Assembly (NCBI RefSeq): GCF_010501035.1
Contig: NZ_QVMH01000001.1
Span: 13,759-77,758 of the forward strand
Length of the DNA stretch: 64,000 nt
Source of the DNA: Paludibacter sp. 221
GTDB lineage: Bacteria; Bacteroidota; Bacteroidia; Bacteroidales; Paludibacteraceae
Direction: 5' to 3'
Part shown: positions 6,594 to 23,646 of the stretch, piece by piece
How the letters are laid out: the number at the start of each line of letters is the position of its first letter
Numbering within the stretch: the first letter of the stretch is position 1
The notes under the pieces: generated by a model
Told to the model about the DNA's origin: nothing
Seen by the model: the letters and a program-made list of their open reading frames with translations, nothing else
Databases searched by the model: none
Program-made: the position numbers and the translations under genes

Positions 6594-6805
6594 ATCTTTA
6601 TTTTTTAAGTATTAATTTCAATCGAAGCACAAATATATATACAAAAAATCGGTTAAATAGCAAAGAATCAGGCTGTGGCAGCATTTGTCCGGGGTTGTCC
6701 GGGGTTTCGGAGACAAACTCATTTCAGAAATGGAATAATTTTCTCTTAGAAAAGGAAACAGCCCTCGAAAATCAATCCGAAGGCTGCCCCGTTTTACACG
6801 AGCCA

Positions 6806-7396
6806 TTACTCCCGTATAAATTTTCGGAACTCCTCATTTTTGATGGAGTCATAAGGAGCGTTCCCTTCTGCCTGTTCAAAAGCCAACAATATACGTTCCT
6901 GCGCACGGGGTATCCGTGTTATTATCTGCTCGAAGAGGTCAGTATCACAAAGTTCAAATGCTACATTTAAGGCAGCCTTCTTTTCCTCTCTGTCAACTGT
7001 TCTGCCTGATGCCAGACCGCCCAACATCTGAAGTTCCTCAAAAGAAGTCCCATGCCCCCATGTGCCTATTTGTCTTGCTTTTGAAATTGCTGCTACAAAG
7101 TTTTTCTCTGTCAATTCTTCGAGTAGCTCTTTACTTACCAGCGAGCGGGCAACCTTTACACGTAGCTCATAAGTACGATTCTCCACATAAAGCGTGGTGT
7201 CTTTAAATCTCTTTAATATCGAACCGGTTACTTTTTTATATGCTTTTACCACCTGTCCCCAAGTAGCATCATAGATTCTTTTCAAGAGTCTACGGTGCAT
7301 ATCGCCAAAAGCCCTGCGTAGCGGACCACTCAGAAGCATCCCCGCCCAAAACCACAGGCTAACCAATACATAGAATTTTATAAATACTTTGTTCAT
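6806..7396 (-). CDS. unknown membrane-anchored island protein
   Basis: 196 residues, with one hydrophobic segment at the N-terminus (about residues 6-24, VLVSLWFWAGMLL) and a charged, mainly helical remainder. I recognise no domain. It follows the DUF3408 and ParA genes directly (one-base overlap with DUF3408), so it probably belongs to the same maintenance or transfer operon. An inner-membrane protein facing the cytosol is the most I can infer. Confidence 0.75.
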   Translation of the reverse strand: MNKVFIKFYVLVSLWFWAGMLLSGPLRRAFGDMHRRLLKRIYDATWGQVVKAYKKVTGSILKRFKDTTLYVENRTYELRVKVARSLVSKELLEELTEKNFVAAISKARQIGTWGHGTSFEELQMLGGLASGRTVDREEKKAALNVAFELCDTDLFEQIITRIPRAQERILLAFEQAEGNAPYDSIKNEEFRKFIRE

Positions 7397-7875
7397 TATT
7401 CTGTCGGGTTTATATTATTCGTTTGGTAAATGGTATCTATCTCTTCTTTGAACGTATCCAAATGGTTCAGGATAATATTCTCCACATAGCTGCTGATAGT
7501 CGCTTTTGATTCATCCATCAGATGAACAATTCGCATTAACCGGCGGTGGGTTGTGGCGGTAATGTACAGCGGCTTCCGGTGTGTGAAATCTATCCGGTTG
7601 AAGAACAAACTTTGATAATCTGCCTGCGGTTTGCGCTTTCTCCTCTCTGTTGGTTTTACCGGAGGCTCGGCAACATTAGTCACTAGTTCCTCGATTTCTT
7701 CAGTTGGCTCAACAATTTGTCCGGCTATTTTCTTCTTCATCTCTGTCTCCATCACTTCCGAATCCACACTGGCGGACTTTACTTCTTCCGGTGCTGTATT
7801 CTCCATAGTCTTTTCCAACGGTACACCCTGATGTACCATTGAGCGGAGTTTATCGAATTTATTTTCTGTTGCCAT
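7396..7875 (-). CDS. DUF3408 protein
   Basis: 159 residues. The disordered, charged N-terminal half is followed by a conserved C-terminal ribbon-helix-helix-like region (YITATTHRRLMRIVHLMDE). DUF3408 proteins accompany ParA on Bacteroides conjugative and mobilizable elements (the TraB position). A DNA-binding partner of ParA is the usual inference. It overlaps both neighbours by about one base, so translation is coupled. Confidence 0.8.
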   Translation of the reverse strand: MATENKFDKLRSMVHQGVPLEKTMENTAPEEVKSASVDSEVMETEMKKKIAGQIVEPTEEIEELVTNVAEPPVKPTERRKRKPQADYQSLFFNRIDFTHRKPLYITATTHRRLMRIVHLMDESKATISSYVENIILNHLDTFKEEIDTIYQTNNINPTE

Positions 7876-8651
7876 TATAATTGAGGTTTAAGGTGAATAA
7901 TCTCCATAATTTCATTAACCAGCAAATCCAAGTTGCTGCCTTTGAGTAAATTCCTATCAGCAGGAAAGATTGTGGATAGAAAAACAGCATCGCTACCCTC
8001 GATGGACTGTTCCTTGTCGTAGCGGACGGATTGCGGGATAACTGTCTGCATCAGCGGTAATCCAAATTGGCAGATAAGTTTCTTGTAGTGTTCGAGCCAG
8101 TCTTTCTTGATACGTCCATCGACACGATTCCAAAACAGATGGATGGCTTTCAGGTTCAGGTCTTTGTATTCCCCCAACACTTCTTTTACAGGAACAATGA
8201 ATGAGAGTGTACTCTCCATTGACATCCGAGAGGGAGCCATTGGCACGAAAACATAATCCATCGACATAAAGGTTGAAATTACCCCATCGTTGTTGATGGT
8301 TCCCGGCAGGTCGAAAAATACCACATCATAGTCGGCTGGTTCGCTAGCCAAAAACTCACGGGCTTTCAGGATTGCTTCTTCCGGTTTGGAGCATACGATG
8401 GGATAGGTCTGTTTACCCAGCGAATCAAACAGGGCAATAGCTTTGGACTGATAGTGCAGGTTGGTTTCCAACTGCCGGATTTCACGTTTACGCATGTCGT
8501 AGACACTGCATTGCGGATAGTCGCAATCCATTACGGCAACATTCAGTTCTTTGAAGTAATGCAGATAGCTTGCCACGAGTACTGTAAATGTACTTTTGCC
8601 GACACCACCCTTTTGAGTGGAGAAGGCGATAAATAACGGTTCTTTTTTCAT
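7875..8651 (-). CDS. ParA-family ATPase
   Basis: 258 residues of the MinD/ParA fold. The deviant Walker A is QKGGVGKST near residue 12 and a Walker B-like stretch is VVFFDLPG. On Bacteroides elements this gene takes the TraA position and is implicated in maintenance or regulation of transfer. I chose ATG 8651 (MKKEPLF) because the 17 codons upstream are not conserved-looking. It is the first gene of the three-gene operon 8651-6806, and the repeats at 8650-8815 may be its binding sites. Confidence 0.88.
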   Translation of the reverse strand: MKKEPLFIAFSTQKGGVGKSTFTVLVASYLHYFKELNVAVMDCDYPQCSVYDMRKREIRQLETNLHYQSKAIALFDSLGKQTYPIVCSKPEEAILKAREFLASEPADYDVVFFDLPGTINNDGVISTFMSMDYVFVPMAPSRMSMESTLSFIVPVKEVLGEYKDLNLKAIHLFWNRVDGRIKKDWLEHYKKLICQFGLPLMQTVIPQSVRYDKEQSIEGSDAVFLSTIFPADRNLLKGSNLDLLVNEIMEIIHLKPQL

Positions 8652-8815
8652 CTTGTTTTCAATTTTTAGAATTACACATATTGATATTTGTAAGTTTTTC
8701 AAGCTTTATTATTTTATTGTTTTCAAGTTTCCTTGTTTTCAAATTACCAAACCGCCAAGTTTTCATGTTTGATATTTTTCAAGTTTTCAAAATGTAAAAC
8801 CAACTTGAAAAACTT
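8650..8815. repeat. TTTTCAAG repeat cluster upstream of parA
   Basis: At least six copies of TTTTCAAG or close variants, some in opposite orientation, occur in the promoter region of the ParA operon. Among them are 8720-8727, 8736-8743, two joined copies around 8776-8792, and the palindromic AACTTGAAAAACTT at about 8801-8814. A partition (parS-like) or autoregulatory site is plausible. The region is also very AT-rich, so some copies may be chance. Confidence 0.45.
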
Positions 8816-9485
8816 CTAATCAGAAAAACAGCAGATTTTCCAAGTCTCAAAATTTATCGATAGATTGAAATTTGTATATTATCCTGTCTATAAAAACTGC
8901 CAATTTTAAACCTTCCAATCTTTCAGCCGCGAATGTATAACATTCTGTTTGTCAATATACAATGTCGGTTTCTTATGCATTGAAAGGGTGCGTTTTGCGC
9001 CAAAGGCTTGCTGTTAAGAAGGCTATTTGAATAATTGCAGGACAAGTATGTTTTTTTATCTCTCAATGGTTTGTCGGAATTTACATTTGGCAAATCGGGG
9101 CAATTCGCACCGATTGCTTTCCGGTCAAATAAGCAATATATAGCAGAGTTACACATGTCAATCCGGCTTTGATATTGACCGGATATTATTAATTTTCTTC
9201 GTGGTCTGAAATATTAAAATGACAGACCGATGAATGAAGAAAATTATTTTAAGGCGACCTCCAATTTAAGTCGCGTTAGAGAATCCGGGCTTCTACGTTT
9301 TATGCCCCGGATAGTGTGTAATAGTTGCCACCGAAGCAAAAAACAAAGAGCCTCACGCCTCTTTATTTTTTTGTCGTCGTCAAAGGAGCAAGGTAATCGC
9401 ACGGGTAACCCGAAATTCGCCTGTGGCTCTTTCTTGTTCCTCCTGTGCATACCTTGCCCTGCGGGGCTGCGAACTCCTGCACCCG
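8816..9485. other. long intergenic region, nested inverted repeat at 9191-9245
   Basis: No convincing gene is seen here on either strand. The main structure is a nested inverted repeat: AATTTTCTTC (9191-9200) with GAAGAAAATT (9236-9245), inside which GGTCTG (9203-9208) pairs with CAGACC (9223-9228). Composition turns GC-rich after about 9400, unlike the flanks. Given its place between the divergent ParA operon and mob genes, it probably carries promoters and part of the transfer origin. Confidence 0.5.
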
Positions 9486-9597
9486 CTCCCGATGGTCGGC
9501 TGGTTTGGGTTCGCCTGACAACCTTTCCGCTATTCTCCCGATGGTCGCATGCTAGTCAGGTTGTCTTGCAAGCCTTCATTTCATCTCCCGGTGGTCG
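9486..9597. other. candidate oriT with three direct repeats
   Basis: CTCCCGATGGTCG occurs at 9486-9498 and 9535-9547, and CTCCCGGTGGTCG at 9585-9597, spaced 49 and 50 bases apart. GACAACCT (9517-9524) and AGGTTGTC (9558-9565) form an inverted repeat around the middle copy. The array ends about 70 bases before the MobC-like gene, the usual place for oriT in Bacteroides mobilizable elements. The nick site cannot be named from sequence alone. Confidence 0.5.
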
Positions 9598-9665
9598 CTT
9601 TCGTTTTGGCTTGCCCGGCTATCTGAATAGCCAGAAAGATTCCATAACCTTCGAATGTATATGTT

Positions 9666-10016
9666 ATGGAAGATAAGAAAGAGGAGAAGCCCAAACGTGG
9701 TCGTCCGGCTAAGGAGAAAGAGAAGTTAAATCGCTCAATCAATCTCAAATTGACAGAGAAAGACTTCGGTTTAATCAAGGAGAAAGCGGAGAAAATAGGG
9801 ATGAAAGCGACACAATATGCACGGGAAATGGTGCTTAAAGGAGGTGTCAAATCCCGTTTTACATTGGAGGAACTTGACCTTATGCGAAAACTTTCAGGTA
9901 TAGCAAATAACCTGAACCAGATCGCAAAAAAAGCTAATCAGGCAGGATATATTGCGGAAAGCATTAATATAATGGGAATGATGATCAGAATTAAAAGGAT
10001 ACTGGATGATCGCTAA
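9666..10016 (+). CDS. MobC/BmgB-like relaxosome protein
   Basis: 116 residues. A lysine-rich start with an AT-hook-like RGRPAKEK is followed by a ribbon-helix-helix region (INLKLTEKDFGLIKEKAEK) and the LSGIANNLNQIAKKAN segment typical of MobC/plasmid mobilization relaxosome proteins. Such proteins bind oriT and help the relaxase nick. Its stop overlaps the relaxase start by 11 bases. Confidence 0.88.
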   Translation: MEDKKEEKPKRGRPAKEKEKLNRSINLKLTEKDFGLIKEKAEKIGMKATQYAREMVLKGGVKSRFTLEELDLMRKLSGIANNLNQIAKKANQAGYIAESINIMGMMIRIKRILDDR

Positions 10017-11268
10017 GAATATCAAGGGAAAGTCATTTAAGGGATGTGTATCATATGTGATGAACGATACTGCCAAGTTGCTTGAAGCTGAAGGTGTATT
10101 AGATTCAAGTAAACAGGATATTATCCGCAGTTTTGCCATACAACGTTCCGGCAGAAAGGAAATCAAGCAGCCTGTCGGACACATTCCATTGTCATTTGCT
10201 CCCGAAGATAAGGATAGAATGACGAATGATTTTATGGTACAATTAGCTAAGGAATACATGGAAGAAATGGGTATTAAAAACACCCAATATATCATTGCCC
10301 GGCATTACAACACCGACAATGAACACATTCATATTGTCTATAACCGAATCGACAATAACCTGAAATTAATATCAGTCAACCACGATTACAAACGGAATAT
10401 CAAGGTCTGTAAGAAACTAAAAGACAAACATGGATTGACTTATGGCAAGGACAAAGAAAGGGTTAAGCGAGAGAAATTAAGGAATCCGGATAAGGCAAAA
10501 TATTATATCCATGATGCGATTAAAACCGTTCTGCCGAATTGCAAAACACCTAATGACCTGCGATATAATCTTCAAAAATTCGGGATAGAGCTTGAGTACA
10601 AGCACAAACGAACAACATCTGAGATTGAGGGAGTATCATTCCGGTACGGAGATATAGCATTCAAAGGCTCTGAGGTAGATAGAAAATACAGCTTTGGAAA
10701 TCTGAAAGAGGAGTTCCAGAAAAATCTTTTGGAAGAAAACAAGCAAATAGAAGAAACATACTTGCGACAACAGGTGGAGCAAAGAACTAAACTAGAAACC
10801 GATGAAAAAGCTAAACAACAAACCCAAAGCAAGCCGAAACTTCCATCTATTGGTGGTACTGAATTGATGTCTGAGCAATGGCAAATATTAAAAGACGGTG
10901 GGCATGTTTATCTTGAAAACATGAATCGTAGCAATGGAGATGGTAAATTCTCCTCCTATGTTTTCCTTAACGACGAAAAGAGCAAAGCCTTTTTTAGCGA
11001 CAAGAATCCCGATGAGTTTGTCAAATACGGCAAATACGAAATGCGCATACGAGATAAGATACTCATAGAAAATGGCTATGTCACAAAAGCCAAAGTAAAA
11101 TGGTGGGGCATGGGAAGCTATGCAAACCCTTACTTGTGGAAAGAGAATAAAGTAGATGCCCAATATAAAGAATCGTGGAGTGATCCACGATTGCAGAAAA
11201 CTCAAAAGGAGGAGCAAAAGCCAAAGCAACCCATCGTTCAGAAGAAAAATAGAGGGCAAAAGAGGTAA
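10006..11268 (+). CDS. MobA/BmgA-like relaxase
   Basis: 420 residues. The relaxase/mobilization domain occupies the first 250 or so residues, with the metal-binding histidine motif in RHYNTDNEHIHIVYNRI (about residues 98-115). The C-terminal half is charged and helical. It should nick oriT and lead the transferred strand, using a helper element's coupling protein and secretion system, none of which is encoded here. It is translationally coupled to the MobC-like gene. Confidence 0.92.
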   Translation: MIAKNIKGKSFKGCVSYVMNDTAKLLEAEGVLDSSKQDIIRSFAIQRSGRKEIKQPVGHIPLSFAPEDKDRMTNDFMVQLAKEYMEEMGIKNTQYIIARHYNTDNEHIHIVYNRIDNNLKLISVNHDYKRNIKVCKKLKDKHGLTYGKDKERVKREKLRNPDKAKYYIHDAIKTVLPNCKTPNDLRYNLQKFGIELEYKHKRTTSEIEGVSFRYGDIAFKGSEVDRKYSFGNLKEEFQKNLLEENKQIEETYLRQQVEQRTKLETDEKAKQQTQSKPKLPSIGGTELMSEQWQILKDGGHVYLENMNRSNGDGKFSSYVFLNDEKSKAFFSDKNPDEFVKYGKYEMRIRDKILIENGYVTKAKVKWWGMGSYANPYLWKENKVDAQYKESWSDPRLQKTQKEEQKPKQPIVQKKNRGQKR

Positions 11269-11325: not shown

Positions 11326-12516
11326 ATGACTTCAGTAAAGATAAAATTTAGAAAATCAACTATAAAGAATAAGGAGGGAGTCCTCTATATTCAATTAATT
11401 CATAGCCGTGAAACTAAGCTTATTACGACAAGGTTTCGATTGCATTCTTTTGAGTGGGATAATCGTTCATCCACAGTAATAACAAATACCATAGACTCCG
11501 AAAGGATGTCTTACTTACAAAACATAAAAGACGGATTGGAATCAGAGGTCAGGCAGATTTATGATTTAATCTCCATACTTGAAAAACGAGGCGACTATAC
11601 CACTAAGGAACTGGTTGAATACTATGCCAATAACTCTTTTAATGGTTACTTCTTTCCTTTCATAAAATATCAAATCAAGGAGTTGAAATCTGAAAATCGA
11701 ACTAAAACCGCATCAATATATGAAACTGCAAGGAGAAGTTTTTCCCGCTTCCGGTATGGAGAAGATATTCGAATCGACAAGATAGACAGCTCATTGATGC
11801 AACGGTACGAAACTTATCTGAAAAATAATGGGGTCTCACAGAATAGTATTTCTTGCTATATGCGAGCATTGAGAGTTACATACAATCAGGCAGTACAAAA
11901 AGGTTTGACAATCTCAAAGAACCCATTTAAAGATGTTTATACAGGCATATACAAAACCTCTAAAAGAGCTGTAAATGAAGATATAATCACCAAGCTAATA
12001 AAACTTGACCTTTCAGAATATAGCCACTTACTATTAGCACGGGATCTTTTCACGTTTAGTTTTTACACACGAGGTATGTCCTTTGTCGATATGGCTAATC
12101 TCAAGCAAAGCAATCTAAAGAACGGTTATCTCGTCTACTGCCGTAGTAAAACCAAACAAGCCCTGAGTATCAAGGTAGAAAAATGTATTGAAGAAATAAT
12201 AGACCGATACAAAGAAATTGCTATTGATGACTATATTCTTCCTATATACACTTCTCAAAACCGAGATTATAACAGCCATTTACGAACTTACAACAAACGT
12301 CTCAAACGAATTTCGGAACTACTTAATCTGGAAAAGCCGTTGAGTTCATATGTCTCACGGCATTCTTGGGCAACGATAGCCCTACGCAAAGGGATTTCCG
12401 TACAAGTCATAAGTGAAGGAATGGGGCATGAAAACGAGAAGACAACCCGAATATACTTAGCTTCTTTGGATCAATCTGTTATAGACGATGCAAATTCCCA
12501 GATAATCGCACTATAA
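11326..12516 (+). CDS. invertase-type tyrosine recombinase
   Basis: 396 residues with an arm-type N-terminus, a SAM-like domain (about 105-195) and a catalytic domain. The active-site blocks are FYTRGMSFVDM, YVSRHSWAT and GMGHENEKTTRIYLA with the nucleophilic Tyr. The FYTRGMSFVDM signature is that of Bacteroides Tsr-type recombinases, many of which invert nearby DNA. The gene ends 15 bases before a 32-bp inverted repeat whose partner lies 315 bases further on, so promoter inversion is its probable job. A role in island integration cannot be excluded. Confidence 0.92.
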   Translation: MTSVKIKFRKSTIKNKEGVLYIQLIHSRETKLITTRFRLHSFEWDNRSSTVITNTIDSERMSYLQNIKDGLESEVRQIYDLISILEKRGDYTTKELVEYYANNSFNGYFFPFIKYQIKELKSENRTKTASIYETARRSFSRFRYGEDIRIDKIDSSLMQRYETYLKNNGVSQNSISCYMRALRVTYNQAVQKGLTISKNPFKDVYTGIYKTSKRAVNEDIITKLIKLDLSEYSHLLLARDLFTFSFYTRGMSFVDMANLKQSNLKNGYLVYCRSKTKQALSIKVEKCIEEIIDRYKEIAIDDYILPIYTSQNRDYNSHLRTYNKRLKRISELLNLEKPLSSYVSRHSWATIALRKGISVQVISEGMGHENEKTTRIYLASLDQSVIDDANSQIIAL

Positions 12517-12531: not shown

Positions 12532-12563
12532 GATACCACCTCTTGTTTAGAGGTGGTACTATA
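12532..12563 (+). repeat. left inverted repeat of invertible segment
   Basis: 32 bases, the reverse complement of 12879-12910 with a single mismatch. Each copy is itself a near-palindrome (TACCACCTC / GAGGTGGTA around TTGTTTA), as expected for a tyrosine recombinase core site. Similarity stops sharply at both ends. Confidence 0.85.
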
Positions 12564-12878
12564 CTAAAATTCGCGCACGCGCAAAGATACAAAAGTATTT
12601 CTAAAGAGGAAACAGAAAACGTTAAGTTTTTAACATATACCATATATGCACCCGTATTTTTCGATAATATCTCTGTATATCAGCATGTTTATATGAATGT
12701 TTGAAAAATATCTTTCCAATAACTTCCTAAGCAAGATAAGAAGCTGATAATGAGCGTCCTCTAAAACGACCTCACAAACCTTTCCTTCTTTGTTTGCAAA
12801 ATCGTTCGAAAAACTACTTACATATAATAAACCTAACGCTAAAATTGGCTTGTAACCAACATTATACAAGAAATATTA
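12564..12878. promoter_or_regulatory. predicted invertible promoter segment (OFF orientation)
   Basis: A 315-base gene-free segment bounded by inverted repeats. On the minus strand it holds TATCTTTG at 12589-12582, a perfect Bacteroidota -7 element with only a weak -33 about 20 bases upstream, and a GC-rich GCGCACGCGC just after it. In this copy transcription would run left, antisense into the recombinase gene. After inversion the -7 element would sit at about 12853-12860, pointing at the 13028 operon. I see no plus-strand promoter between the right repeat and 13028. Confidence 0.7.
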
Positions 12879-12910
12879 TATAGTACCACCTCTAAACAAG
12901 AAGTGGTATC
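12879..12910 (-). repeat. right inverted repeat of invertible segment
   Basis: Matches 12532-12563 in reverse complement at 31 of 32 positions (the difference is A at 12901). If the segment flips, this repeat becomes part of the 5' leader of the downstream operon and could fold as a hairpin there. Confidence 0.85.
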
Positions 12911-13027: not shown

Positions 13028-13714
13028 ATGGGATTTTTTTTAGTAATTCTTATTGGTGTTGGTGCGTTTATCGCATTTAAGTTTTTAAAGGGGAATGATA
13101 CCCCATATGTAAAAGAACGAATTAAAGGGAGACCTGAGAATCAAAAAAAAGTTATCAGATACTTTTGTAATGATGATGGTTGCTTTTCAAGTAGGATGAA
13201 AGATGAAGAGTATGATGGCATGGTAAGATCAGTTTTAAATTCAATGGATTTTAGACAAAAAGCCCTTAATAAAATCGGTTTAGATGAAGATCAAGTAAAA
13301 GAAATAGATCCTGTTCATTTTGAGAACTATTTGTTTGGCAAAAAACATTTTGCTCGTTTTGGCAAAGACCATAAATGGCGTAGTTCTGCTTACCAAGTAA
13401 GTTGGCTTTTTTTTAGCGATACTCAAGTTTATTTGTATCAATATACATTTAACATGGACGAGGATGGAAAACAAGAGAAGACAGAAGAGTATTTCTATAA
13501 AGATATAACTAATTTTTCGGCATCTTCAGACACGGAGGAATCTCCAGTTTACGACCCTAAACAGAAAAAAGAAATACTGAAGAATATAGATTCTTGTCGT
13601 TTTGCAATTACAGTACCCGGTGATAAGCTCTGGTGTGCGATGGATCAGAATGATTATACCGAAAGAGCTATCCAAGCCATGAAAGCAAAATTAAGAGAAA
13701 AGAAAAATTCATAA
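13028..13714 (+). CDS. unknown protein with one membrane helix
   Basis: 228 residues. Residues 3-20 form one strongly hydrophobic helix, so the rest is probably cytoplasmic or, less likely, periplasmic. The centre (about 115-170, VSWLFFSDTQVYLYQYTFN) looks like a beta-rich, possibly pleckstrin-like domain; that is a guess. It is the first gene of the seven-gene operon that ends at 20483. Its leader contains no consensus promoter in this orientation. Composition is AT-rich, like the rest of the operon. Confidence 0.8.
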   Translation: MGFFLVILIGVGAFIAFKFLKGNDTPYVKERIKGRPENQKKVIRYFCNDDGCFSSRMKDEEYDGMVRSVLNSMDFRQKALNKIGLDEDQVKEIDPVHFENYLFGKKHFARFGKDHKWRSSAYQVSWLFFSDTQVYLYQYTFNMDEDGKQEKTEEYFYKDITNFSASSDTEESPVYDPKQKKEILKNIDSCRFAITVPGDKLWCAMDQNDYTERAIQAMKAKLREKKNS

Positions 13715-13718
13715 CGAT

Positions 13719-14225
13719 GTGGATGTTGTAAATATATTCAAATCAAGAAAGATAAAACACACCATCGTTGAAAGAACCCCTAGTGGATCAGAACAAAATG
13801 TTGCAAAATCATATTGTTTACATCGCCCTCTTTACAGACCTAAAACTAATATAAAAAAGGTCTTAATCTGGTTGTTTTGGTTTGAAGTAGGAATCATTCT
13901 AACCACTTTTGTACTAGGTTTTATTTTGAGATACTTCGGGGCTTCTTTCTCTTCTTTTTTTGGAAGGGATATATTTTATATATATAATCTTATTAGTCTA
14001 TTATTCCTAATGATATTTCTTAAACGAATACTTATTCTAATAATAGAATTATATCAGCATTATGCTCCTGAAGAAATGCGTAGGAAATGCCTTCTAATGC
14101 CAACTTGTTCTGAATACGCATTATTGGCATTGCAGAAGCATGGTGTAATTAAGGGACTATATAAGACCTACATCCGTTTAACAAAAAAATGCAAAGGAGA
14201 GACTTATTATATTGATTATCCATAG
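13719..14225 (+). CDS. membrane protein with YidD domain
   Basis: 168 residues starting at GTG, four bases after the previous stop; the ATG just upstream is in a closed frame. Two membrane helices lie at about residues 48-70 and 85-110. The C-terminus (from residue 120) carries the YidD signature: MPTCSEYALLAL, then KHGVIKG and RLTKKC with its cysteines. Ordinary YidD is a small peripheral protein that aids YidC-dependent membrane insertion. This version has membrane anchors and sits in an accessory operon, so it probably serves the operon's own membrane assembly. Confidence 0.8.
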   Translation: MDVVNIFKSRKIKHTIVERTPSGSEQNVAKSYCLHRPLYRPKTNIKKVLIWLFWFEVGIILTTFVLGFILRYFGASFSSFFGRDIFYIYNLISLLFLMIFLKRILILIIELYQHYAPEEMRRKCLLMPTCSEYALLALQKHGVIKGLYKTYIRLTKKCKGETYYIDYP

Positions 14226-14243
14226 ATTTATTTTTTAGAGAAC

Positions 14244-16913
14244 ATGGTGTCCACTACTTTATTGTCAAATAATGAAAGCATCGGTTTAGGAGTTATAGAA
14301 ATAGTTTCAATTCCTAGCATATCGATATTATCTAATAAATATTCTGATATACAATCCATGTCTATCGAATATAAAAAAGAAATGGGTAATTTGTTGGTGG
14401 AGGTTTACCAGTATTATAAAATGCTAAATATCACAAATGGATTACCCAATGATATTTCACTGGAAGTGCTGTGGACAACTCATTCAGTTTCTAACCAGCC
14501 ATATAAAGCGAATATAAAAATATTCTTATTGGTGCGGTCTATTGGAAATGACAATTATTCTGTTGAAAAAAATATAAACTCTATTTTGGAGATATGTAAA
14601 ACGACCTTGGATATACAAAAGTATGAGTATAAAACAATTTCTTATGAAGAGTTTGTGCCAATCATCAATAATATTGAAGACCAGTCTATTTGTGCAATAG
14701 TAAAAGAAGAAAGAATAGAAAATCTTCAAAATCAGATATTACCAGTTTGCTATTCTTTTGATCAAATACCTAATAGTGAGACAGATTTGAGTAAGATAGT
14801 CAACACATTGATTAATTATCCTAATTGTGCAATATCATTTCAATTAATACCAACATCTTATACTCTAAATGAAACGCAAGAGATTGACAGAATGACTCAA
14901 ATGCTTGATACTCTACACAAAGGTATCGCAGAGCAAGGAGTCGGAAATATAAGCTTCTCTTTAGCTGAAAAACAAGCTCAAATATATAAATATTATACAC
15001 AAAATAAAGGAAATGCTCTTTTCTATTTTAATATCTTAATTTATGGAGATGTAGATGCCGTATCAAATATATCAACTCGTGTTTATGGACAACTTAATGC
15101 ATCAACAATAAATAATGCAGGTCTAAAATTCATAAATTTATTACCCAATGAGGTAAATAAGGATGACAATTTCTATCCTCTTCCTTGGGCAATAAATGAA
15201 TTGCTATTAGGAGCAGAAAGAGAACATCATATATGGGATGGGGGACAAATCTCTGCCAATTATTACAAATTACCCTATATTATCACATTTGAAGAAGCTT
15301 CTGAATTTTTCAGACTCCCTTTTGGCAATGATAAAATATCTGCAGGGTTGGTTGTAAACGAATCTAGCAAGAGAGGTAAAACATATACCGATGATATAAT
15401 AAATTCAGGTGATATAGAAGTCGGAATGCTTAAATCCTCATCAAAAGGTGATAAAATAGGATTTTCTCTAAAAGATCTAGCTAAACATATGTTGATAGTT
15501 GGAACACCCGGATCGGGGAAAACAACTTTTTCTGTTAGCTTATTGGATCGTTTATGGAAGCAACACAATATCCCCTTTTTGGTTATTGAGCCTGCAAAGA
15601 ATGAATATCGGGCTCTAATTCAAAGCATTCCTGATTTGCAGGTGTTCACACCCGGAAAGAATTTCATTTCTCCATTCATATTTAATCCATTTATTCCCCC
15701 AAAAAATGTCAAACTAGAAACTTATAAGTCAACATTAAAAACAGCCTTTGCAGCTGCTGTTTCTATGTCTACACCACTTGATAAAATATTTGAAGAAGCA
15801 ATAAATAATTGTTATTCAGATTTCAGGTGGCTTGATTCTTACACTAGCGACGATAAAGGTGAAATTTTCAATATAACAGATTTCATTAAATGTTTCCAAC
15901 AAACATTTGATGAAATAGGTTATACAGGAGATGCTAAAAATATTGGCCGTGCAGGTATTGTTCGCTTAAATAGTTTAATAAATCTATTTGATAATTACTT
16001 TTCTATTCCTATTGAAGATCTATTACAAAAACCTACGATTATAGAGCTTGCAGCAATTGAAAACAGTGATCAAAAAGCATTGATTATTTCTCTCCTATTG
16101 TTATCCATTCTTGCCTATGTCAATGCAAATTATATCGGCGAAGGAGGTTTAAAGAATGTCATTTTATTGGAAGAGGCACATGTCCTTTTGGATGCAGACA
16201 CTAATGCAGGGCAAGGAGAAGCAAACCCAAGTGCAATCGCACAAGGACTTGTAAAAAGAATGCTTGCCGAAATTCGATCTTATGGTGTTGGGTTAATTGT
16301 TGCAGATCAATCGCCACGTAAAGTTTCTGTAGATGTTGTTGCCCTTACGGATATGAAACTAGCTTTTAGGTTGGTTGAGGCAACCGACAAACAAATTCTT
16401 GCTGATAGCACCAATATGTCAGATACGCAAGCACAGAGATTAGCCAAGTTAAAACCAGGAGAAGCATTTTTCTTTTTTAATAAGTTAGATGAACCAGAAG
16501 AAATTGTTACAGAAGATTATCGATTACAAAATAATATTAGCATTTCATTGTCAGATGAAGGAATAAAATCTTTGTCGACATATTGGAATGATAAGTCGGA
16601 TAAGCTATGTCCCTATCCAGAATGCCAACATGTGAGTTACTGTTCTACCAAATGTGATTATTCAAGGCGCATTTTGGCAAAAGAAATATCCCGAAGAATA
16701 TTTGTCCGAAATTTCAAACAAAACGATTCTAATTTCGATCCTGTAAAGAAAGTTTTTGGACAGATATCGAAAATGATTATAGTAGAGCTAAATGATGAAC
16801 CCTTCAATAAGGAATTACTATTATGTGTAAAAGCACAACTATGGCGGAAAATAAAGTACGGAACAAAAATTCCAGTAAGTGACACTCAGATACAAAAATC
16901 TTTAGAAAAATAA
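14244..16913 (+). CDS. HerA/DUF87-type ATPase
   Basis: 889 residues. The N-terminal 400 or so are of unrecognised fold. The ATPase domain has Walker A GTPGSGKT (residues 420-427), Walker B VILLEEAH (about 639-646) and a following IVADQSPR segment, as in HerA/FtsK/VirB4-class hexameric pumps. A cysteine cluster, CPYPECQHVSYCSTKC (about 788-803), suggests a zinc-binding tail. HerA relatives move DNA, and several anti-phage systems use one. No partner nuclease such as NurA, Sir2 or DUF4297 is present, so the substrate is unknown. Confidence 0.85.
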   Translation: MVSTTLLSNNESIGLGVIEIVSIPSISILSNKYSDIQSMSIEYKKEMGNLLVEVYQYYKMLNITNGLPNDISLEVLWTTHSVSNQPYKANIKIFLLVRSIGNDNYSVEKNINSILEICKTTLDIQKYEYKTISYEEFVPIINNIEDQSICAIVKEERIENLQNQILPVCYSFDQIPNSETDLSKIVNTLINYPNCAISFQLIPTSYTLNETQEIDRMTQMLDTLHKGIAEQGVGNISFSLAEKQAQIYKYYTQNKGNALFYFNILIYGDVDAVSNISTRVYGQLNASTINNAGLKFINLLPNEVNKDDNFYPLPWAINELLLGAEREHHIWDGGQISANYYKLPYIITFEEASEFFRLPFGNDKISAGLVVNESSKRGKTYTDDIINSGDIEVGMLKSSSKGDKIGFSLKDLAKHMLIVGTPGSGKTTFSVSLLDRLWKQHNIPFLVIEPAKNEYRALIQSIPDLQVFTPGKNFISPFIFNPFIPPKNVKLETYKSTLKTAFAAAVSMSTPLDKIFEEAINNCYSDFRWLDSYTSDDKGEIFNITDFIKCFQQTFDEIGYTGDAKNIGRAGIVRLNSLINLFDNYFSIPIEDLLQKPTIIELAAIENSDQKALIISLLLLSILAYVNANYIGEGGLKNVILLEEAHVLLDADTNAGQGEANPSAIAQGLVKRMLAEIRSYGVGLIVADQSPRKVSVDVVALTDMKLAFRLVEATDKQILADSTNMSDTQAQRLAKLKPGEAFFFFNKLDEPEEIVTEDYRLQNNISISLSDEGIKSLSTYWNDKSDKLCPYPECQHVSYCSTKCDYSRRILAKEISRRIFVRNFKQNDSNFDPVKKVFGQISKMIIVELNDEPFNKELLLCVKAQLWRKIKYGTKIPVSDTQIQKSLEK

Positions 16914-16916
16914 ACA

Positions 16917-18005
16917 ATGGACGAAGAATATAACGAATCAGAAGACACCTCTGACGTATCGTCGGATATGGACAGTTCCGATATTGAAACCTCGGATAAT
17001 AGTTTCGAAGATGGGGATATCCCTGAAGATACAGCAACCGAAGATTTTGAATCAGATGACACGTGGGATGACAGTGTCCTTTCTGAAGATACGGACGAAA
17101 TAGAAGAAGACGATAACTTTGACGAAGAAAACGGAGATGATGCTTCGGACGCTGAAGTTGAAGAAGATTTCGAAAACGATGATTTTGAAGAATCGCCGAC
17201 GGAAGACGTCGAGGAAGAAGAAATAACTGAAAATACAGAAACAGAAGAAACAGAGTCCGGAGAAGATTCTGAGAATGAAACAGAGGTTCCCGAAGATGAT
17301 GAATCCATAGTAGATTCGGAGGAAGAAAGTCAAGATGACACCAACAGCCAAAGTGATTTAGAAGAAGATGCTGACTCGGAAGAATCTAAGGAAACCAATG
17401 AAGATGAAGAAAATCCGGAGAGTAGGTCATTAAATGATATACTGGAAGATCCGAATGTTGACGACCAAACTAAAGATAAATTATCAGAATTGTCAGGAAG
17501 GAAACAAAGCAACGATAGTAACGGTGATGATGGAGAAACTGGAGATACTTCTCCGGAAGAACCTGATGGCGATGACGAAGGCAAAAAGGATTCTTTTATA
17601 AAACCCGATGACGACTACCAAAATGAAAGGGGATCACGACCATATTATGAAGAAGAAATTCCCGAAGAAGATGTAATAGAAGAGGAGGAAGAAACTTCTT
17701 TCAGCAATGAAAAAGATCACTCCTTGCGACATTTGGAGGAAGATCAGGAAAGGGAAAGAGAAGAAGAAGCAGAAGAGCAAAGGGCTGAAGAAGAATCTGA
17801 GAAACAAAGCGTTGAAGAGCAAGAAACTGAAGAACAGCAAAAAATAGAAGAAGAGCAGGAAGAAGAAAATACAAGAAACCAAGAGATCGAACGAATCAAC
17901 AGGCTGCGAGGCATTTCGTCCGAATCTGACACTCGTAACAAAAGTGATTCAAACAATCAAGATTCAAATTATAATCCTTACTATAACAGAGATAGGCAAC
18001 GATAG
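16917..18005 (+). CDS. extremely acidic, disordered protein
   Basis: 362 residues starting three bases after the ATPase stop. Residues 1-200 are dominated by Asp, Glu and Ser. About 245-325 is a Glu/Gln/Arg-rich stretch likely to form a single long helix or coiled coil. No signal peptide or membrane segment is seen. The function is unknown. Such acidity suits a DNA mimic, a protein-binding scaffold or a chaperone-like linker. It is placed between the ATPase and the SPFH protein, and may connect the two. Confidence 0.8.
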   Translation: MDEEYNESEDTSDVSSDMDSSDIETSDNSFEDGDIPEDTATEDFESDDTWDDSVLSEDTDEIEEDDNFDEENGDDASDAEVEEDFENDDFEESPTEDVEEEEITENTETEETESGEDSENETEVPEDDESIVDSEEESQDDTNSQSDLEEDADSEESKETNEDEENPESRSLNDILEDPNVDDQTKDKLSELSGRKQSNDSNGDDGETGDTSPEEPDGDDEGKKDSFIKPDDDYQNERGSRPYYEEEIPEEDVIEEEEETSFSNEKDHSLRHLEEDQEREREEEAEEQRAEEESEKQSVEEQETEEQQKIEEEQEEENTRNQEIERINRLRGISSESDTRNKSDSNNQDSNYNPYYNRDRQR

Positions 18006-18029
18006 TTATAAATTTAAAATTACAGCAAT

Positions 18030-19199
18030 ATGGGACTTTTCAATAAAAATCCGAATGAAGCAGATTACACTGGAGGTAAAAAGCATTGGGCTGATGTCAT
18101 TAAGAATTCCGGAGCAGGTGAACTTTTGATATGGAAGCAACCCGAAGAAGACTTTAATACCAATTCAACCCTGATCGTCATGCCTGGTGAGGAGGCCATC
18201 TTCATTAAGGACGGACGTGTAGAAACAGTTTCGGAAAACGGGAAATATAACTTAAAGACAGACAATTATCCTTTCATAAGCCGTATCAGAAATGCTTTTA
18301 CTGGAGGAATAAGCGTTTTCAACTGTGTAGTCTATTTCGTCAGGAAAGCACATAGCGCAGAAATAGGTTGGGGCACGCCTGCTCCGATTCAGGTCAGAGA
18401 TCCTTTATTAGGGATGATGACCAATGTGCAGGCTCATGGTTCATTTAAGATTAAAATAGATAACTCCGTAAAATTCCTGGAAAAACTATTGGGTAACAAT
18501 GTTTTCTTCGAAACCCAGGAAGGAATGAATAAATATTTTTTCAATCAATTTATTCAACACATTACCGATTCCATTCAAGAAGCAATCGAGAGTTCAGATG
18601 AAGAAATCACTCGTACTTTCAAGAAAAAAGCTTTTCTGGCTGAAAATGTTATTTGCCCTATCCTTCAAAAAATCGTCGACAATTACGGGTTGATATTAGA
18701 AGAATTCGTAATTTCTACATTGAGATTTGTTGATGATGAATTACGCCAGAATTATGAGATGCGAATTCAACAAATGAATTTAGATGCAAGAGAGAAAGTT
18801 ATAAATGCTCAAGCTGATAAGTCTGTTTTTGGCGTTTTAGGAGATGACTGGGGGCGCCAACAAGCTGCTAATATCTTGTCTGATGTAGCAAACAATCCAG
18901 GAGCAGGAGGTGTTGCTTCCGCTGGAGCTGGGTTAGGTATGGGAATGGCTGCCGGAGGTGTTTTTGGAGGAATGGCTCAGCAAATATTCAATCCAATGCA
19001 ACAACAGCCAGCACAACAGCAACCTGTTCAACAACCATCAGGACGATTTACGCAGAAAAATGAAAGCCAAAGTGAGAATGCCGCTTCAAGTGATAACCCT
19101 GTGGAGAAAATAAAACAATTGAAAGAAATGCTTGATATTGGTGCTATATCACAAGAAGAATTTGATACAAAGAAACAAGAAATACTTAATCGAATGTAA
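18030..19199 (+). CDS. YdjI-like SPFH protein with SHOCT tail
   Basis: 389 residues. An SPFH/band-7-type domain of the virion core protein/YdjI class occupies about 40-260. A Gly/Ala-rich and then Gln/Pro-rich linker (about 290-345) follows, with a C-terminal SHOCT motif (KIKQLKEMLDIGAISQEEFD). SPFH proteins form membrane-bound oligomeric platforms. In Bacillus subtilis YdjI acts with YdjG, YdjH and the PspA homologue YdjF in the membrane stress response. Here it would be the scaffold at the membrane, with the zinc-ribbon and four-TM proteins downstream as partners. Confidence 0.85.
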   Translation: MGLFNKNPNEADYTGGKKHWADVIKNSGAGELLIWKQPEEDFNTNSTLIVMPGEEAIFIKDGRVETVSENGKYNLKTDNYPFISRIRNAFTGGISVFNCVVYFVRKAHSAEIGWGTPAPIQVRDPLLGMMTNVQAHGSFKIKIDNSVKFLEKLLGNNVFFETQEGMNKYFFNQFIQHITDSIQEAIESSDEEITRTFKKKAFLAENVICPILQKIVDNYGLILEEFVISTLRFVDDELRQNYEMRIQQMNLDAREKVINAQADKSVFGVLGDDWGRQQAANILSDVANNPGAGGVASAGAGLGMGMAAGGVFGGMAQQIFNPMQQQPAQQQPVQQPSGRFTQKNESQSENAASSDNPVEKIKQLKEMLDIGAISQEEFDTKKQEILNRM

Positions 19200-19209
19200 G
19201 ATTAAAAAT

Positions 19210-19887
19210 ATGAAAACAACACTATGGATTATATTAGATGCTATTTTTTTGATAGTGTTTAATGTTTTATTCTTCTTGATTGGAGGAAGTGAACATCCAG
19301 CTTCGGTCTGGATTTCCTACGGGTTCATTCACTTTGCATACATAATGCTTTTACTCACACCATTATTTGTTCGCAAAGGGAGTGGGCAGGAAAATTATCG
19401 TCGCCCATTATTCGGAATATCCACTTCCTATTTTTTCCTCGAATTGGTAATCGGTGTCACTTTCATATTGATTGTTCCCGACAATTTTAAGTGGGCTTTG
19501 GCTATCCAGTTGATTCTGATGGCAGTATATATCATTTTAATGGTTGCCAATATGATAGCCAATGAGCATACTGCCGACAGCATCGAAAAGAGAGAGAATG
19601 AATTGAAATATATAAAAAATGCTTCTACTTCGCTAGATTCAATCATGAAGCAGCTTTCCGACAAAGAATTAAGAAGAAAAGTAGAAAAAGTATACGATCT
19701 CATTCATAGCAGTCCTACTCAGTCTTCTTATAGTGTATTTCAAATAGAGCAAGATGTTATAAATGAAATAGACAATCTTCAGGACGCTGTAATAAGTGGA
19801 GACGCTGATTCAATAACCCGAATTTCGAACAAAATATACAGGCTTGCAGAAAATAGAAACCGACAATTAAAGTTTAATAGTAAATAA
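19210..19887 (+). CDS. four-TM membrane protein
   Basis: 225 residues from ATG 19210; a longer frame from 19132 overlaps the SPFH gene and is unlikely. Four hydrophobic helices fill about residues 3-120, followed by a charged helical C-terminal region of about 100 residues predicted to be cytoplasmic. I recognise no family. The position resembles YdjH in the Bacillus ydj cluster, but I cannot claim homology. Confidence 0.8.
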   Translation: MKTTLWIILDAIFLIVFNVLFFLIGGSEHPASVWISYGFIHFAYIMLLLTPLFVRKGSGQENYRRPLFGISTSYFFLELVIGVTFILIVPDNFKWALAIQLILMAVYIILMVANMIANEHTADSIEKRENELKYIKNASTSLDSIMKQLSDKELRRKVEKVYDLIHSSPTQSSYSVFQIEQDVINEIDNLQDAVISGDADSITRISNKIYRLAENRNRQLKFNSK

Positions 19888-19889
19888 AT

Positions 19890-20483
19890 ATGGCTCATCA
19901 AGTAATCGAATTATCATGCCCCGGCTGTGGGGCGCGTGTAACTACCAATCAAAGTGAATGCATGTATTGCTACAAACCGATTATAATATCAACATTTAAT
20001 AGTGTATATTCTATGCCGATGCCTGAAGTAAATAAGTATGCAGGAGCGTATCGTAAAGCATTGACGGAAAACCCTGATGATCAAGACTTAAACGCGTCTA
20101 TTGCGATGTGCTACCTAAAGTTGAAGCTATATGATCAAGCTCTACCTGCTTTCGAAAAAGCAATAGAAGACAATTTTGATAATTCGGAGATCTTTTTTTA
20201 TGCCGCAGTAAGCTTGTTAAAAGGACAAAAAGCTTTTGTTTCACCTCGTCCGAATATTGATAAAATAATAGAATATTTGAATGCTGCAATAATGATTGAA
20301 CCTAAAGGTGTATACTACTATTTTTTATCATATATTAAATATGATTATTTCAGTCGAAAATATCTTAACATAACTCCAACATTTGAAGAAACGCTACAAT
20401 TAGCAAGAGAAAATGGGGTATCTGATTTTGATGTTGAACAACTATTTTTGATACTAAATGTGCAAAAGCCAGAATGTATGTAG
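19890..20483 (+). CDS. zinc-ribbon and TPR protein
   Basis: 197 residues, starting two bases after the previous stop. The zinc ribbon uses Cys10, Cys13, Cys24 and Cys27. Tetratricopeptide-like helices follow from about residue 50 (NASIAMCYLKLKLYDQALPA). Zinc-ribbon proteins of this type pair with YdjI-like SPFH proteins and probably bind them. It is the last gene of the operon; no strong terminator follows. Confidence 0.82.
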   Translation: MAHQVIELSCPGCGARVTTNQSECMYCYKPIIISTFNSVYSMPMPEVNKYAGAYRKALTENPDDQDLNASIAMCYLKLKLYDQALPAFEKAIEDNFDNSEIFFYAAVSLLKGQKAFVSPRPNIDKIIEYLNAAIMIEPKGVYYYFLSYIKYDYFSRKYLNITPTFEETLQLARENGVSDFDVEQLFLILNVQKPECM

Positions 20484-21007: not shown

Positions 21008-21061
21008 TGTCAAGTTTATAGTGCGATAAACTTGACATTGTAAAAAATGTTTGTATCTTTG
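21008..21061 (+). promoter_or_regulatory. promoter with palindromic operator for DUF6088 gene
   Basis: TGTCAAGTTTAT (21008-21019) and ATAAACTTGACA (21026-21037) form a perfect 12-bp inverted repeat around a six-base centre. The right arm contains the -33 TTGACA, and TATCTTTG follows at 21054-21061. A dimer bound to the repeat would cover the -33, as expected for autorepression. The start codon is only four bases beyond the -7, so the message is either leaderless or has another start site. Confidence 0.75.
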
Positions 21062-21065
21062 TAGC

Positions 21066-21791
21066 ATGTCATTAGCAAGTGAAATACGAACAAGGATAAA
21101 TAAATTCCCAGAGGGTAAAACCTTTGGTTACTCCGATTTACTCATTGCTAAAGAAGATTATGTTACAGCTGCAAAGGCATTGGAACGTCTGCAAAAAGAA
21201 GGTTTGATAAAAAAGATGTCCAAAGGTATTTTTTATAAGCCACAACAAACTGTTTTTGGAGAACTAAAGCCGGATTATACTGAGATGTTACGTCCTTATC
21301 TTTTCGAGAATGGGAGGCGAGTTGCATACGAAACCGGATATTCTCTTTATAACAGACTTAAGTTGACCACACAGGTAGCTTTTCGAATTAAAATTGCTAG
21401 CCGTGATAGGCGTATTTCGGTTAATAAAGGTGCATTGAAAATTGATACGGTGAAAAGCTACGTTGATGTGACAGATACCAATTACAAATTGTTGGAGTTG
21501 CTCGATGCCCTCAAGGATATAAAACGCATACCCGATGCTTCGACAGACAACAGTATTGTTATTTTAAGTAGTTTAATCAATAAACTGAGTGATAAGCAGA
21601 TTGCTGAAATGATAAAATATGCTTTGTCATATCCGCCACGAGTAAAAGCCCTACTGGGTGCTATCTTGGAAAATATTAACAATCAAGTAAGTACAAACAA
21701 ACTAAAACAGAGTCTTAATCCACTTACTAAGTTTGAATTGGGCATAAAGAAGTCTGTCCTACCAACCATTAACAACTGGAACATAGAATGA
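21066..21791 (+). CDS. DUF6088 / AbiEi-like antitoxin
   Basis: 241 residues. An N-terminal winged helix (FGYSDLLIAKEDYVTAAKAL, then GLIKKMSKGIFYK) and a C-terminal region match the AbiEi/DUF6088 antitoxin class. These proteins repress their own promoter and neutralise an AbiEii nucleotidyltransferase. I use ATG 21066; the upstream TTG lies inside the promoter. The usual toxin partner is not next to it. An AbiEii-like gene comes 1.1 kb later after an unrelated regulator, so it may be an orphan or may act on that toxin. Confidence 0.85.
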   Translation: MSLASEIRTRINKFPEGKTFGYSDLLIAKEDYVTAAKALERLQKEGLIKKMSKGIFYKPQQTVFGELKPDYTEMLRPYLFENGRRVAYETGYSLYNRLKLTTQVAFRIKIASRDRRISVNKGALKIDTVKSYVDVTDTNYKLLELLDALKDIKRIPDASTDNSIVILSSLINKLSDKQIAEMIKYALSYPPRVKALLGAILENINNQVSTNKLKQSLNPLTKFELGIKKSVLPTINNWNIE

Positions 21792-21850
21792 AACTGCACC
21801 TAAAGGGAATAAATTGAAAATAATTGTATTTTATTGTGTTTACCTCAGAT

Positions 21851-21909
21851 AATTACCTTATATTTGCAACAATTACCTGTTATGGGTAATTATGATAAAT
21901 TAAGGTAAT
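21851..21909 (+). promoter_or_regulatory. promoter and AATTACC operators for regulator gene
   Basis: TATATTTG at 21859-21866 is a good -7 element. AATTACC occurs at 21851-21857 and 21871-21877, and GGTAATT at 21885-21891 with a further GGTAAT at 21904-21909. The middle pair makes an inverted repeat just downstream of the promoter. Two such pairs flanking the start suggest autorepression by the winged-helix protein encoded next. Confidence 0.65.
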
Positions 21910-21913
21910 CGTG

Positions 21914-22882
21914 ATGAGTGATGTTCAAAAATATCTGCAAGACATACTTGGCTTATCTGGGACTATAAAGAAAGTGCCGGACATGCTGATTAAGAAACTT
22001 CCGTTATACTTGAGCCATACCTATAATTATCGCTTACTCGAATTGGAAGACCATTCTCTTTTGCTTGCAGAAGATGTTGACACAGCACCTAAAACTGTAA
22101 GTCAGCTAAAGAAGCAAGTAAAAACGATATATCAATATACAGAATTGCCTGTCGTTTTTGTGTTGAACAATCTAAGTCCACAAATGAGGTATAGGATGGT
22201 TAAAGAACGGCTCAATTTTATAGTACCTGAAAACCAAATATATCTGCCTGATTTACTTATTTATCTGAAAGAGAATAAGCCGCAAACCTATTCGTTCCCG
22301 GAACAGTTAAGCCCTGCGGCTCAAATGTTATTGCTCTATCATTTACAGGTGGAGCATTTAGAAGAATTCTCATTTAAAGAAATCGCAGAGAAGCTAAATT
22401 ACTCGCCTAAAACAATAACAAAGATTGTATCAGAACTGAAAGCAAAAAAGTTATGCAAAACCACAGGAACAAAAGAAAAACGAGTTGCTTTTGAGGTTGA
22501 TAGGAAACTATTATGGCAGATAGCTGAACCTCAAATGCAATCGCCGATTATTAAGTCCTATTTTACAAACGTAAAAGAGAGTCTGGCTTTTTGCAAATCG
22601 GGAGATATAGCTTTAGCTCATTACACTTTTTTGACAGATACTAAAAAGGAAATGTATGCCGTCTATAAGAATGAATTTGAAGAGTTAAGGAAAAACGATT
22701 TTTGGGAGTATTTAGATGAAACGGAAGGAAATATGCAGGTTGAAGTATGGAAATACAATCCTCGCTTATTAAGTGATAATGGATATATAGATCCTCTATC
22801 TTTATATCTGTGTTATCGGGAAGATTCAAATGAGCGTGTGGAAGCTGAATTAAAAGAACTAATAAACAAAGAAAAATGGTAA
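21914..22882 (+). CDS. winged-helix regulator, antitoxin-like
   Basis: 322 residues. The centre (about 140-200, FKEIAEKLNYSPKTITKIVSELKAKKLC) is a MarR-like winged helix, with a C-terminal domain of unknown fold. It overlaps the nucleotidyltransferase gene by seven bases, so the two are coupled, and its own operator region is repetitive. These points fit an antitoxin-type regulator for the next gene. The first codon could instead be GTG 21911. Confidence 0.75.
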   Translation: MSDVQKYLQDILGLSGTIKKVPDMLIKKLPLYLSHTYNYRLLELEDHSLLLAEDVDTAPKTVSQLKKQVKTIYQYTELPVVFVLNNLSPQMRYRMVKERLNFIVPENQIYLPDLLIYLKENKPQTYSFPEQLSPAAQMLLLYHLQVEHLEEFSFKEIAEKLNYSPKTITKIVSELKAKKLCKTTGTKEKRVAFEVDRKLLWQIAEPQMQSPIIKSYFTNVKESLAFCKSGDIALAHYTFLTDTKKEMYAVYKNEFEELRKNDFWEYLDETEGNMQVEVWKYNPRLLSDNGYIDPLSLYLCYREDSNERVEAELKELINKEKW

Positions 22883-23646
22883 GAGGATTAGATATATTTC
22901 GGGAGTATTTCAAGGGGTATGCAGGCAATTATGTGATTATTGGCGGAACTGCATGCAGTGAACTTATCGAAGATGAAGGCCTGAAACCACGAGCAACAAA
23001 GGATATTGATGCGATTCTGATTGTGGAAGCATTAAGTGATGAATTTGTTAAACGATTCTGGGAGTTTATTAGAGCCGGAGAATATGAGTTGTGGCAAACC
23101 ATATCTGAAAAGACACAATTCTACCGGTTTATTAAACCTAAATCAGAAGGTTTTCCTTTACAAATTGAACTCTTTTCAAGAGTACCAGATCTGATTAAAG
23201 TGCCGGAAGGCTCGCATTTGACTCCAATTCCTGTCGGAGAAGATTTATCAAGTCTTTCTGCTATCCTTTTGGATGATGACTATTACCACTATGCAACATC
23301 TCATACGGTAGTTTTAGATGATCTAAATTTCGTGGATAAAGATGCCATTGTTGTACTTAAGGCAATAGCATATATTAATAACTCGAAGCGTAAAGCAGGA
23401 GGTGAGTCGGTAAGATCGGAGGATATTACAAAACACAAAAACGATATTTTTCGTATTACCTCAACCTTTACCGGAAGTGACAGATATGAAATCCCGGAAG
23501 TTATAAAGAATGATTTAAGGACATTTCTTGAAATGATAAAAGAAGATGGTTTGGGAACAACCGGGTTATCCAAAGAATTAGGACTTGGAGCAGAAATTAC
23601 CATTGATGAGTTTACTACTCAATTAAAGACTGTGTTTGGATTATGA
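22876..23646 (+). CDS. AbiEii-like nucleotidyltransferase toxin
   Basis: 256 residues. The nucleotidyltransferase core shows VIIGGTACSEL near residue 20 and ATKDIDAIL near residue 43, the GG and DxD-type motifs of the AbiEii/DNA polymerase beta-like fold. AbiEii-type toxins modify tRNA or other targets with nucleotides and can cause abortive infection. It is coupled to the upstream regulator by overlap and to the phosphoesterase by a four-base overlap. The substrate cannot be told from sequence. Confidence 0.78.
   Translation: MVRGLDIFREYFKGYAGNYVIIGGTACSELIEDEGLKPRATKDIDAILIVEALSDEFVKRFWEFIRAGEYELWQTISEKTQFYRFIKPKSEGFPLQIELFSRVPDLIKVPEGSHLTPIPVGEDLSSLSAILLDDDYYHYATSHTVVLDDLNFVDKDAIVVLKAIAYINNSKRKAGGESVRSEDITKHKNDIFRITSTFTGSDRYEIPEVIKNDLRTFLEMIKEDGLGTTGLSKELGLGAEITIDEFTTQLKTVFGL

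Follow-up and report, generated by a model that had tools for sequence, protein, structure and literature searches.

Type VII secretion systems (T7SS) combine YueA/EssC-type ATPases of the FtsK-HerA superfamily with LXG polymorphic toxins, in which a constant N-terminal trafficking part is joined to variable C-terminal toxins with immunity neighbours (PMC3482391). FtsK/HerA ATPases are named for T7SS in the main survey of polymorphic toxins, and the available part of that survey mentions neither SPFH nor YidD. Other described motors include VirB4 of type IV secretion (R388 TrwK), the ATPases of DndFGH, HerA/FtsK capture, SIR2-HerA and DUF4297-HerA defence, and the crenarchaeal Ced ATPases CedB and CedD, HerA-class motors with VirB4-like N-terminal parts (PMC11868833). 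A YdjI-like SPFH protein is found together with membrane partners in pspA-ydjGHI of Bacillus subtilis (PMC8581546), and both HerA and YidD are absent from the phage shock protein (PSP) survey. Likenesses to each of these systems occur in a seven-gene operon at positions 13028-20483 of a 64,000-nt stretch of Paludibacter sp. 221 DNA (contig NZ_QVMH01000001.1; the whole stretch is called the window). Its genes, g1 to g7 (Table 1), are a real, conserved and widely shared operon family. The family is apparently undescribed: YidD, HerA and SPFH were not found together in the open-access literature, in agreement with a first-pass annotation of the sequence that knew of no named system with this gene set, and an earlier description elsewhere is possible.

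Probably, the operon encodes an undescribed machine that handles or exports toxins; in related gut bacteria it stands beside interchangeable toxin genes, sometimes with their antidotes. We consider it somewhat likelier than the opposite that its products form an undescribed system which is linked to polymorphic toxins and probably translocates proteins, with a VirB4/HerA-class ATPase (g3) on a membrane platform. The link to toxins is drawn because the acidic gene (g4 in the window) is polymorphic in many relatives, which is the decisive clue. What computation has shown is that the gene set is conserved, that the cargo is polymorphic and carries known toxin domains, that immunity genes stand beside it at two loci, that the model of g3 is VirB4-like, and that inverted repeats accompany a recombinase gene.

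With T7SS polymorphic toxins the operon family shares the ATPase superfamily and the toxin architecture; unlike them, it has shown no WXG/LXG, would use a disordered acidic leader as its trafficking part, has SPFH, YidD, PH-like and zinc/TPR partners, and occurs in diderm phyla too. VirB4 is the best whole-length structural match of the g3 model, whereas type IV secretion finds no sequence-level support, no other VirB gene was recognised in the operon and g3 has a Cys-rich tail. The motor domain fold is common to DndFGH and the HerA-effector defences, but the operon has a membrane platform and leader-toxin cargo, and no matching effector or DNA-sensing partner. In contrast to pspA-ydjGHI, it has no recognised PspA and holds a HerA/VirB4-class ATPase, YidD and acidic cargo, and it differs from Ced, which moves DNA and is without SPFH or acidic-leader cargo.

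Conservation of the gene set and the exchangeable acidic gene

The operon consists of seven tandem open reading frames (ORFs) on a single strand, with intergenic gaps of a few to 24 nt, and its ATPase gene is single copy in the host genome. ORFs, Pfam matches and transmembrane (TM) calls bear out the domains named in the first-pass annotation, among them a HerA-type ATPase with a zinc tail: beside the DUF87/HerA match, tail cysteines C794 and C804 are invariant and C800 nearly so across 45 relatives, in which Walker A and EEAH are invariant as well. A PH-like domain, unnamed in that annotation, was found at about residues 74-228 of the AlphaFold2 model of g1 (predicted local distance difference test score, pLDDT, 91; predicted template modelling score, pTM, 0.85), which matches many PH domains at VIA Z 8-9.9; g1 gave no Pfam/NCBIfam match above cut-off, and a PDB sequence search with it returned nothing. 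Two TM segments (47-71 and 83-113) anchor g2, g6 has no Pfam family above cut-off, and g7 starts with a zinc-ribbon-like CxxC to which Pfam zinc-ribbon matches are weak. A Lipocone link for YidD was considered and dropped; the Lipocone paper does not contain the word YidD.

The gene set, which the first-pass annotation had proposed be sought in other genomes, recurs in about ten phyla. An alignment scan of about 85,000 species genomes yielded at least 113 ATPase relatives, a lower bound because the scan rested on two peptide patterns; 80 were kept and examined, and these span the ten or so phyla with an arrangement in common, so that the grouping is far beyond chance. Among loci with enough downstream sequence, the SPFH gene was present in 40 of 41 testable cases, the acidic leader in 39 (one of the two misses is masked sequence) and the 4-TM gene in 35, and only 12 of 633 ORFs elsewhere in the same loci were of the acidic-leader kind. 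YidD (11 of 36 relatives) and g1 (19 of 36; homologs in 40 loci) are optional, and either a g7-type zinc/TPR gene or an alternative zinc-ribbon gene of about 361 aa occurs in 31 of 36. The order is often zinc/TPR, g1, YidD, ATPase, acidic, SPFH, 4-TM; the zinc/TPR gene is last in the window and a few other loci, and in many Bacteroidales the gene of about 361 aa follows the 4-TM gene instead. Nearer to the window, a 300-genome sample of its family held one other genome with a close relative (64% identity) and an order-level sample one relative at 80%; a Priestia megaterium plasmid carries a 33% relative across 83% of the length. As a separate observation, tandem multi-TM genes of about 184-213 aa lie between the ATPase and cargo genes at two loci (L046 12691-15804; L048 4695-5912).

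The gene between the ATPase and SPFH genes is variable, and in many loci it encodes an acidic, Ser/Thr-rich, unstructured leader followed by differing C-terminal domains. Pfam-backed toxin domains occur at six loci: Colicin-DNase with WHH (L078, 1.2e-25), WHH (L053, 8e-13; L052, 3e-7), papain-fold toxin 1 (L026 and L033, 3e-15 and 3e-10) and TNT (L068, 7e-16). In two of these, L078 (2e-18) and L053 (4e-9), a SUKH/SMI1 immunity gene directly follows the cargo gene; candidate small genes stand elsewhere, many loci have no immunity gene, and there is none in the window operon. The operon family thus has the constant N-terminal part and swappable C-terminal toxins that define polymorphic toxins. 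An HExxH-bearing family (11 loci) and a 98-aa gene family (10 loci) are usually adjacent, and an HExxH acidic-leader protein with its 98-aa neighbour (L034 6582-7600; L040 4968-6007) is a candidate toxin and partner. Further C-terminal domains look Cys-peptidase- or zincin-like by eye, and Pfam did not confirm them.

The window's g4 is 26% E and 17% D, with a net charge of -127 and a hydropathy/charge score of -0.21, below all relatives scored. Cargo that consists of the leader alone forms a real second class, to which the window and most Bacteroidales belong. A gap of at least 200 nt after the cargo gene, which gives room for an immunity gene, was present in 17 of 30 folded-cargo loci versus 2 of 15 leader-only loci (Fisher p 0.009), in a test picked after an ORF-based one had yielded p 0.053 and with a crude hydropathy/charge measure of folding, under which some Pfam-confirmed toxins fall just under zero and whose -0.09 cut was fixed post hoc. 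The host genome contains no SMI1 family member, in a search with a working positive control; searches of it for WHH and papain-fold families also gave nothing, and carry no weight because only the SMI1 search had such a control.

The ATPase and the competing explanations

The AlphaFold2 model of g3 (pLDDT 86.6; pTM 0.57) is matched best in Foldseek by full-length R388 VirB4 (2.4e-15), with HerA behind (1.1e-12), and VIA aligned 588 residues with VirB4 versus about 340-350 with motor-only chains. A CedD model matched g3 at 3.8e-24, yet far under that model's cut-off score. In contrast to the multi-domain EssC-type ATPase, g3 has one motor domain; no WXG100/LXG Pfam match was found in the window genes or in 20 cargo/immunity proteins scanned, and no Pfam family of the VirB3/6/8/9/10 envelope parts among the seven operon proteins.

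We infer that the products assemble into a complex, that leaders are recognised, that cargo is exported, with interbacterial targets, and that the switch inverts, as follows. The g3 ATPase would work on a membrane platform made of the 4-TM g6, the PH-like g1, the YidD g2, the SPFH scaffold g5 and the zinc/TPR adaptor g7. Cargo would be recognised by its N-terminal leader, which is long, acidic and unstructured and has a short [DE][FY] start motif, and would be threaded across the membrane or handed over there. In many relatives this cargo ends in a swappable toxin domain, sometimes followed by its own immunity protein. A recombinase-inverted promoter would switch the operon on and off. The window's cargo gene is the leader alone, so this copy would be toxin-less or use the leader protein itself.

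Several findings weigh against this interpretation. The window's g4 has no Pfam domain, is disordered to its end and carries no toxin domain, one of the marks of a polymorphic toxin system; leader-only cargo also occurs at 15 or more related loci, mostly of one Bacteroidota clade, and several toxin-bearing loci have no immunity gene. The start motif M-x(0-3)-[DE][FY] counts in its favour, being present in 38 of 56 leaders versus 51 of 1005 other ORFs (5.1%) and 11.6% of shuffled leaders, but it was picked after the starts had been viewed, which makes the contrast descriptive only. VirB4 is the best match of g3 along its whole length on a predicted model: the motor alone ties between DndH-C (Z 33.2) and VirB4 (Z 33.1), the root-mean-square deviation of 20.9 from VirB4 reflects a different placement of the domains, and a sequence profile comparison with one VirB4 sequence was not significant. 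Nor could any part of the operon be recognised as a channel, a pilus or a component of the outer membrane.

The tie in the motor domain is shared ground with a HerA/FtsK capture defence that fights invaders within the cell, in which the ATPase would translocate invading DNA and acidic-leader effectors would act inside the infected cell. Such capture systems are on record (PMC12839542), Foldseek also places g3 near the SIR2-HerA and DUF4297-HerA ATPases, and the mobile setting and distant PADLOC matches to HerA/Mad8 fit as well. We nevertheless regard this explanation as unlikely. No Sir2, DUF4297, NurA or PglZ partner accompanies g3, membrane parts predominate, and the cargo is of the classic polymorphic toxin type, twice beside SUKH immunity, which invader-activated effectors would not need. 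The first-pass annotation had envisaged a costly defence or membrane machine, drawing on HerA-based defence: the membrane machine stands, and anti-phage defence is not the best reading, because the cargo recurs with toxin domains of the polymorphic kind, at some loci beside immunity genes, and the PADLOC matches are only distant. Membership in a PADLOC system was rejected, the search having given distant HerA/Mad8 matches on g3 and no Sir2/DUF4297/NurA partner on the other six proteins.

The platform genes raise the prospect of an envelope-stress or membrane-repair module like pspA-ydjGHI, with the SPFH and membrane proteins as the stress complex and the ATPase and acidic protein as its regulators. 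The membrane partners YdjG and YdjH recruit the SPFH protein YdjI (PMC8581546), g5 is a Band_7_1 protein, and zinc-ribbon and multi-TM partners recur. The likeness to ydjFGHI drawn in the first-pass annotation holds for this one component type; Pfam showed no PspA family in the seven proteins and none was recognised among the recurrent neighbours, HerA and YidD go unmentioned in the PSP survey, and the toxin cargo would be left unexplained, all of which makes such a module improbable. We give just as little credence to the idea that the acidic leader protein is itself what the system makes, for instance as a polyanion that is secreted or forms a scaffold, with toxins added later in some lineages and the window retaining the basic function. 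The leader-only cargo of the window and its counterparts fits this idea, as does the leader, not the toxin, being near-constant, but cargo of the toxin type is met repeatedly, in several phyla and also next to distant ATPase subtypes.

The toxin-linked translocation reading has a bolder form, in which the operon stands for a novel kind of machine that exports or delivers proteins and belongs with neither type IV nor type VII, with a VirB4/HerA-class ATPase on an SPFH/YidD/PH-like membrane platform, recognition of acidic disordered leaders, deployment of polymorphic toxins by gut bacteria of many phyla, and switching by promoter inversion; we hold this only tentatively, as a proposal with a smaller chance of being right than wrong. 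If toxin-linked translocation is true, a widespread, mobile and phase-variable motor with toxin cassettes would give bacteria of gut communities a new way to antagonise one another, YidD and YdjI-like SPFH proteins would gain a concrete role, and the leader tag would make the export hypothesis directly testable.

Mobile setting, upstream switch and wider relatives

Table 1. Window coordinates of the operon genes, the candidate switch and the genes of the apparent mobilizable element.
Feature	Position	Strand	Basis or remark
tRNA-Ser	3898-3983		
Integrase	4226-5458		
ParA-like	7875-8702		
MobC/NikA	9666-10016		
Relaxase-like	10006-11268		assigned by eye
Tyrosine recombinase, candidate invertase of the switch	11326-12516	+	Phage_integrase 2.6e-14, Phage_int_SAM_5 1.5e-21
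Left inverted repeat arm	12532-12572	+	41 nt, 88% complementary to right arm
Candidate invertible segment, 297 nt	12573-12869	.	bounded by both arms
Best Bacteroides-type promoter match, TTTC-N19-TATCTTTG	12582-12612	-	one mismatch to TTTG-N19-TAnnTTTG; consensus match only
Right inverted repeat arm	12870-12910	-	pairs with left arm
g1, N-terminal TM and PH-like domain	13028-13714	+	TM 1-23; AlphaFold2 model
g2, TM-anchored YidD	13719-14225	+	Pfam YidD 9.8e-15, residues 102-158
g3, HerA/VirB4-class ATPase, 889 aa, Cys-rich tail	14244-16913	+	Pfam DUF87/HerA 1.3e-13
g4, acidic disordered leader protein, starts MDEEY	16917-18005	+	charge, composition
g5, SPFH (Band_7_1) and SHOCT, YdjI-like	18030-19199	+	Pfam 2.2e-28 and 1.4e-8
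g6, 4-TM protein with helical tail	19210-19887	+	four TM segments
g7, zinc-ribbon-like start and TPR	19890-20483	+	TPR_1 5.2e-8

The phase variation predicted in the first-pass annotation is real as anatomy: the inverted repeats begin right after the tyrosine recombinase gene, which ends 16 nt ahead of the left arm, and a promoter match lies between them. This best match faces away from the operon, and the orientation in the sequenced DNA would accordingly be OFF. As in the window, the operon is directly preceded by a tyrosine recombinase gene and then by perfect inverted repeats at L055 (20 nt; recombinase and repeats in 8303-9964) and L071 (19 nt; 4894-5998), and among 456 random stretches from the same loci one reached 19; a recombinase and inverted-repeat switch upstream of the operon thus appears to be recurrent.

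The mobile setting noted in the first-pass annotation was recovered in the tRNA-Ser, integrase, MobC/NikA and relaxase-like genes upstream, a stretch (3898-11268) that also contains a DUF3408 gene, and the operon lies on what appears to be a mobilizable element. In an attachment (att) site search the tRNA-Ser 3' end had no second copy within the window, and the right end of the element was therefore not located. In the ATPase tree the window and an Azobacteroides metagenome-assembled genome (MAG) form a fully supported pair, which lies in a Bacillota-rich part of the tree and outside the main Bacteroidota clade; this suggests transfer, on a tree whose deeper branches are weakly supported and whose MAG labels can be wrong. 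A viral origin was rejected: viral contigs held no related locus in a single-sequence query that reaches close relatives only, and phages no near DNA match. Two partial protein matches came from short fecal phage records.

Distant HerA-class ATPases occur beside toxin genes on plasmids. In Escherichia coli (L100 1200-9599) two dynamin genes lie upstream of the ATPase, which is followed by an HNH/ENDO VII nuclease, also with an acidic N-terminus, and SMI1/KNR4; in Exiguobacterium (L104 4621-8547) an HNH endonuclease and SMI1/KNR4 follow. Acinetobacter and Photobacterium plasmids that were inspected have neighbours of the distant ATPase without toxin annotation. The two toxin-bearing plasmid loci suggest a broader toxin-linked ATPase class, and they count in favour of the toxin-linked interpretation of the operon.

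Within the window's family, one locus (L012 6257-14136) has an FtsA-like gene (weak match, 0.0012) before a HerA-class ATPase gene and two HExxH proteins after it, each followed by a small gene. Just downstream of the window's operon (21051-23646), by eye, the genes resemble an AbiE-type pair, formed by a DUF6088 protein (Pfam 3.5e-8) and a nucleotidyltransferase-like protein (22876-23646) without a Pfam match.
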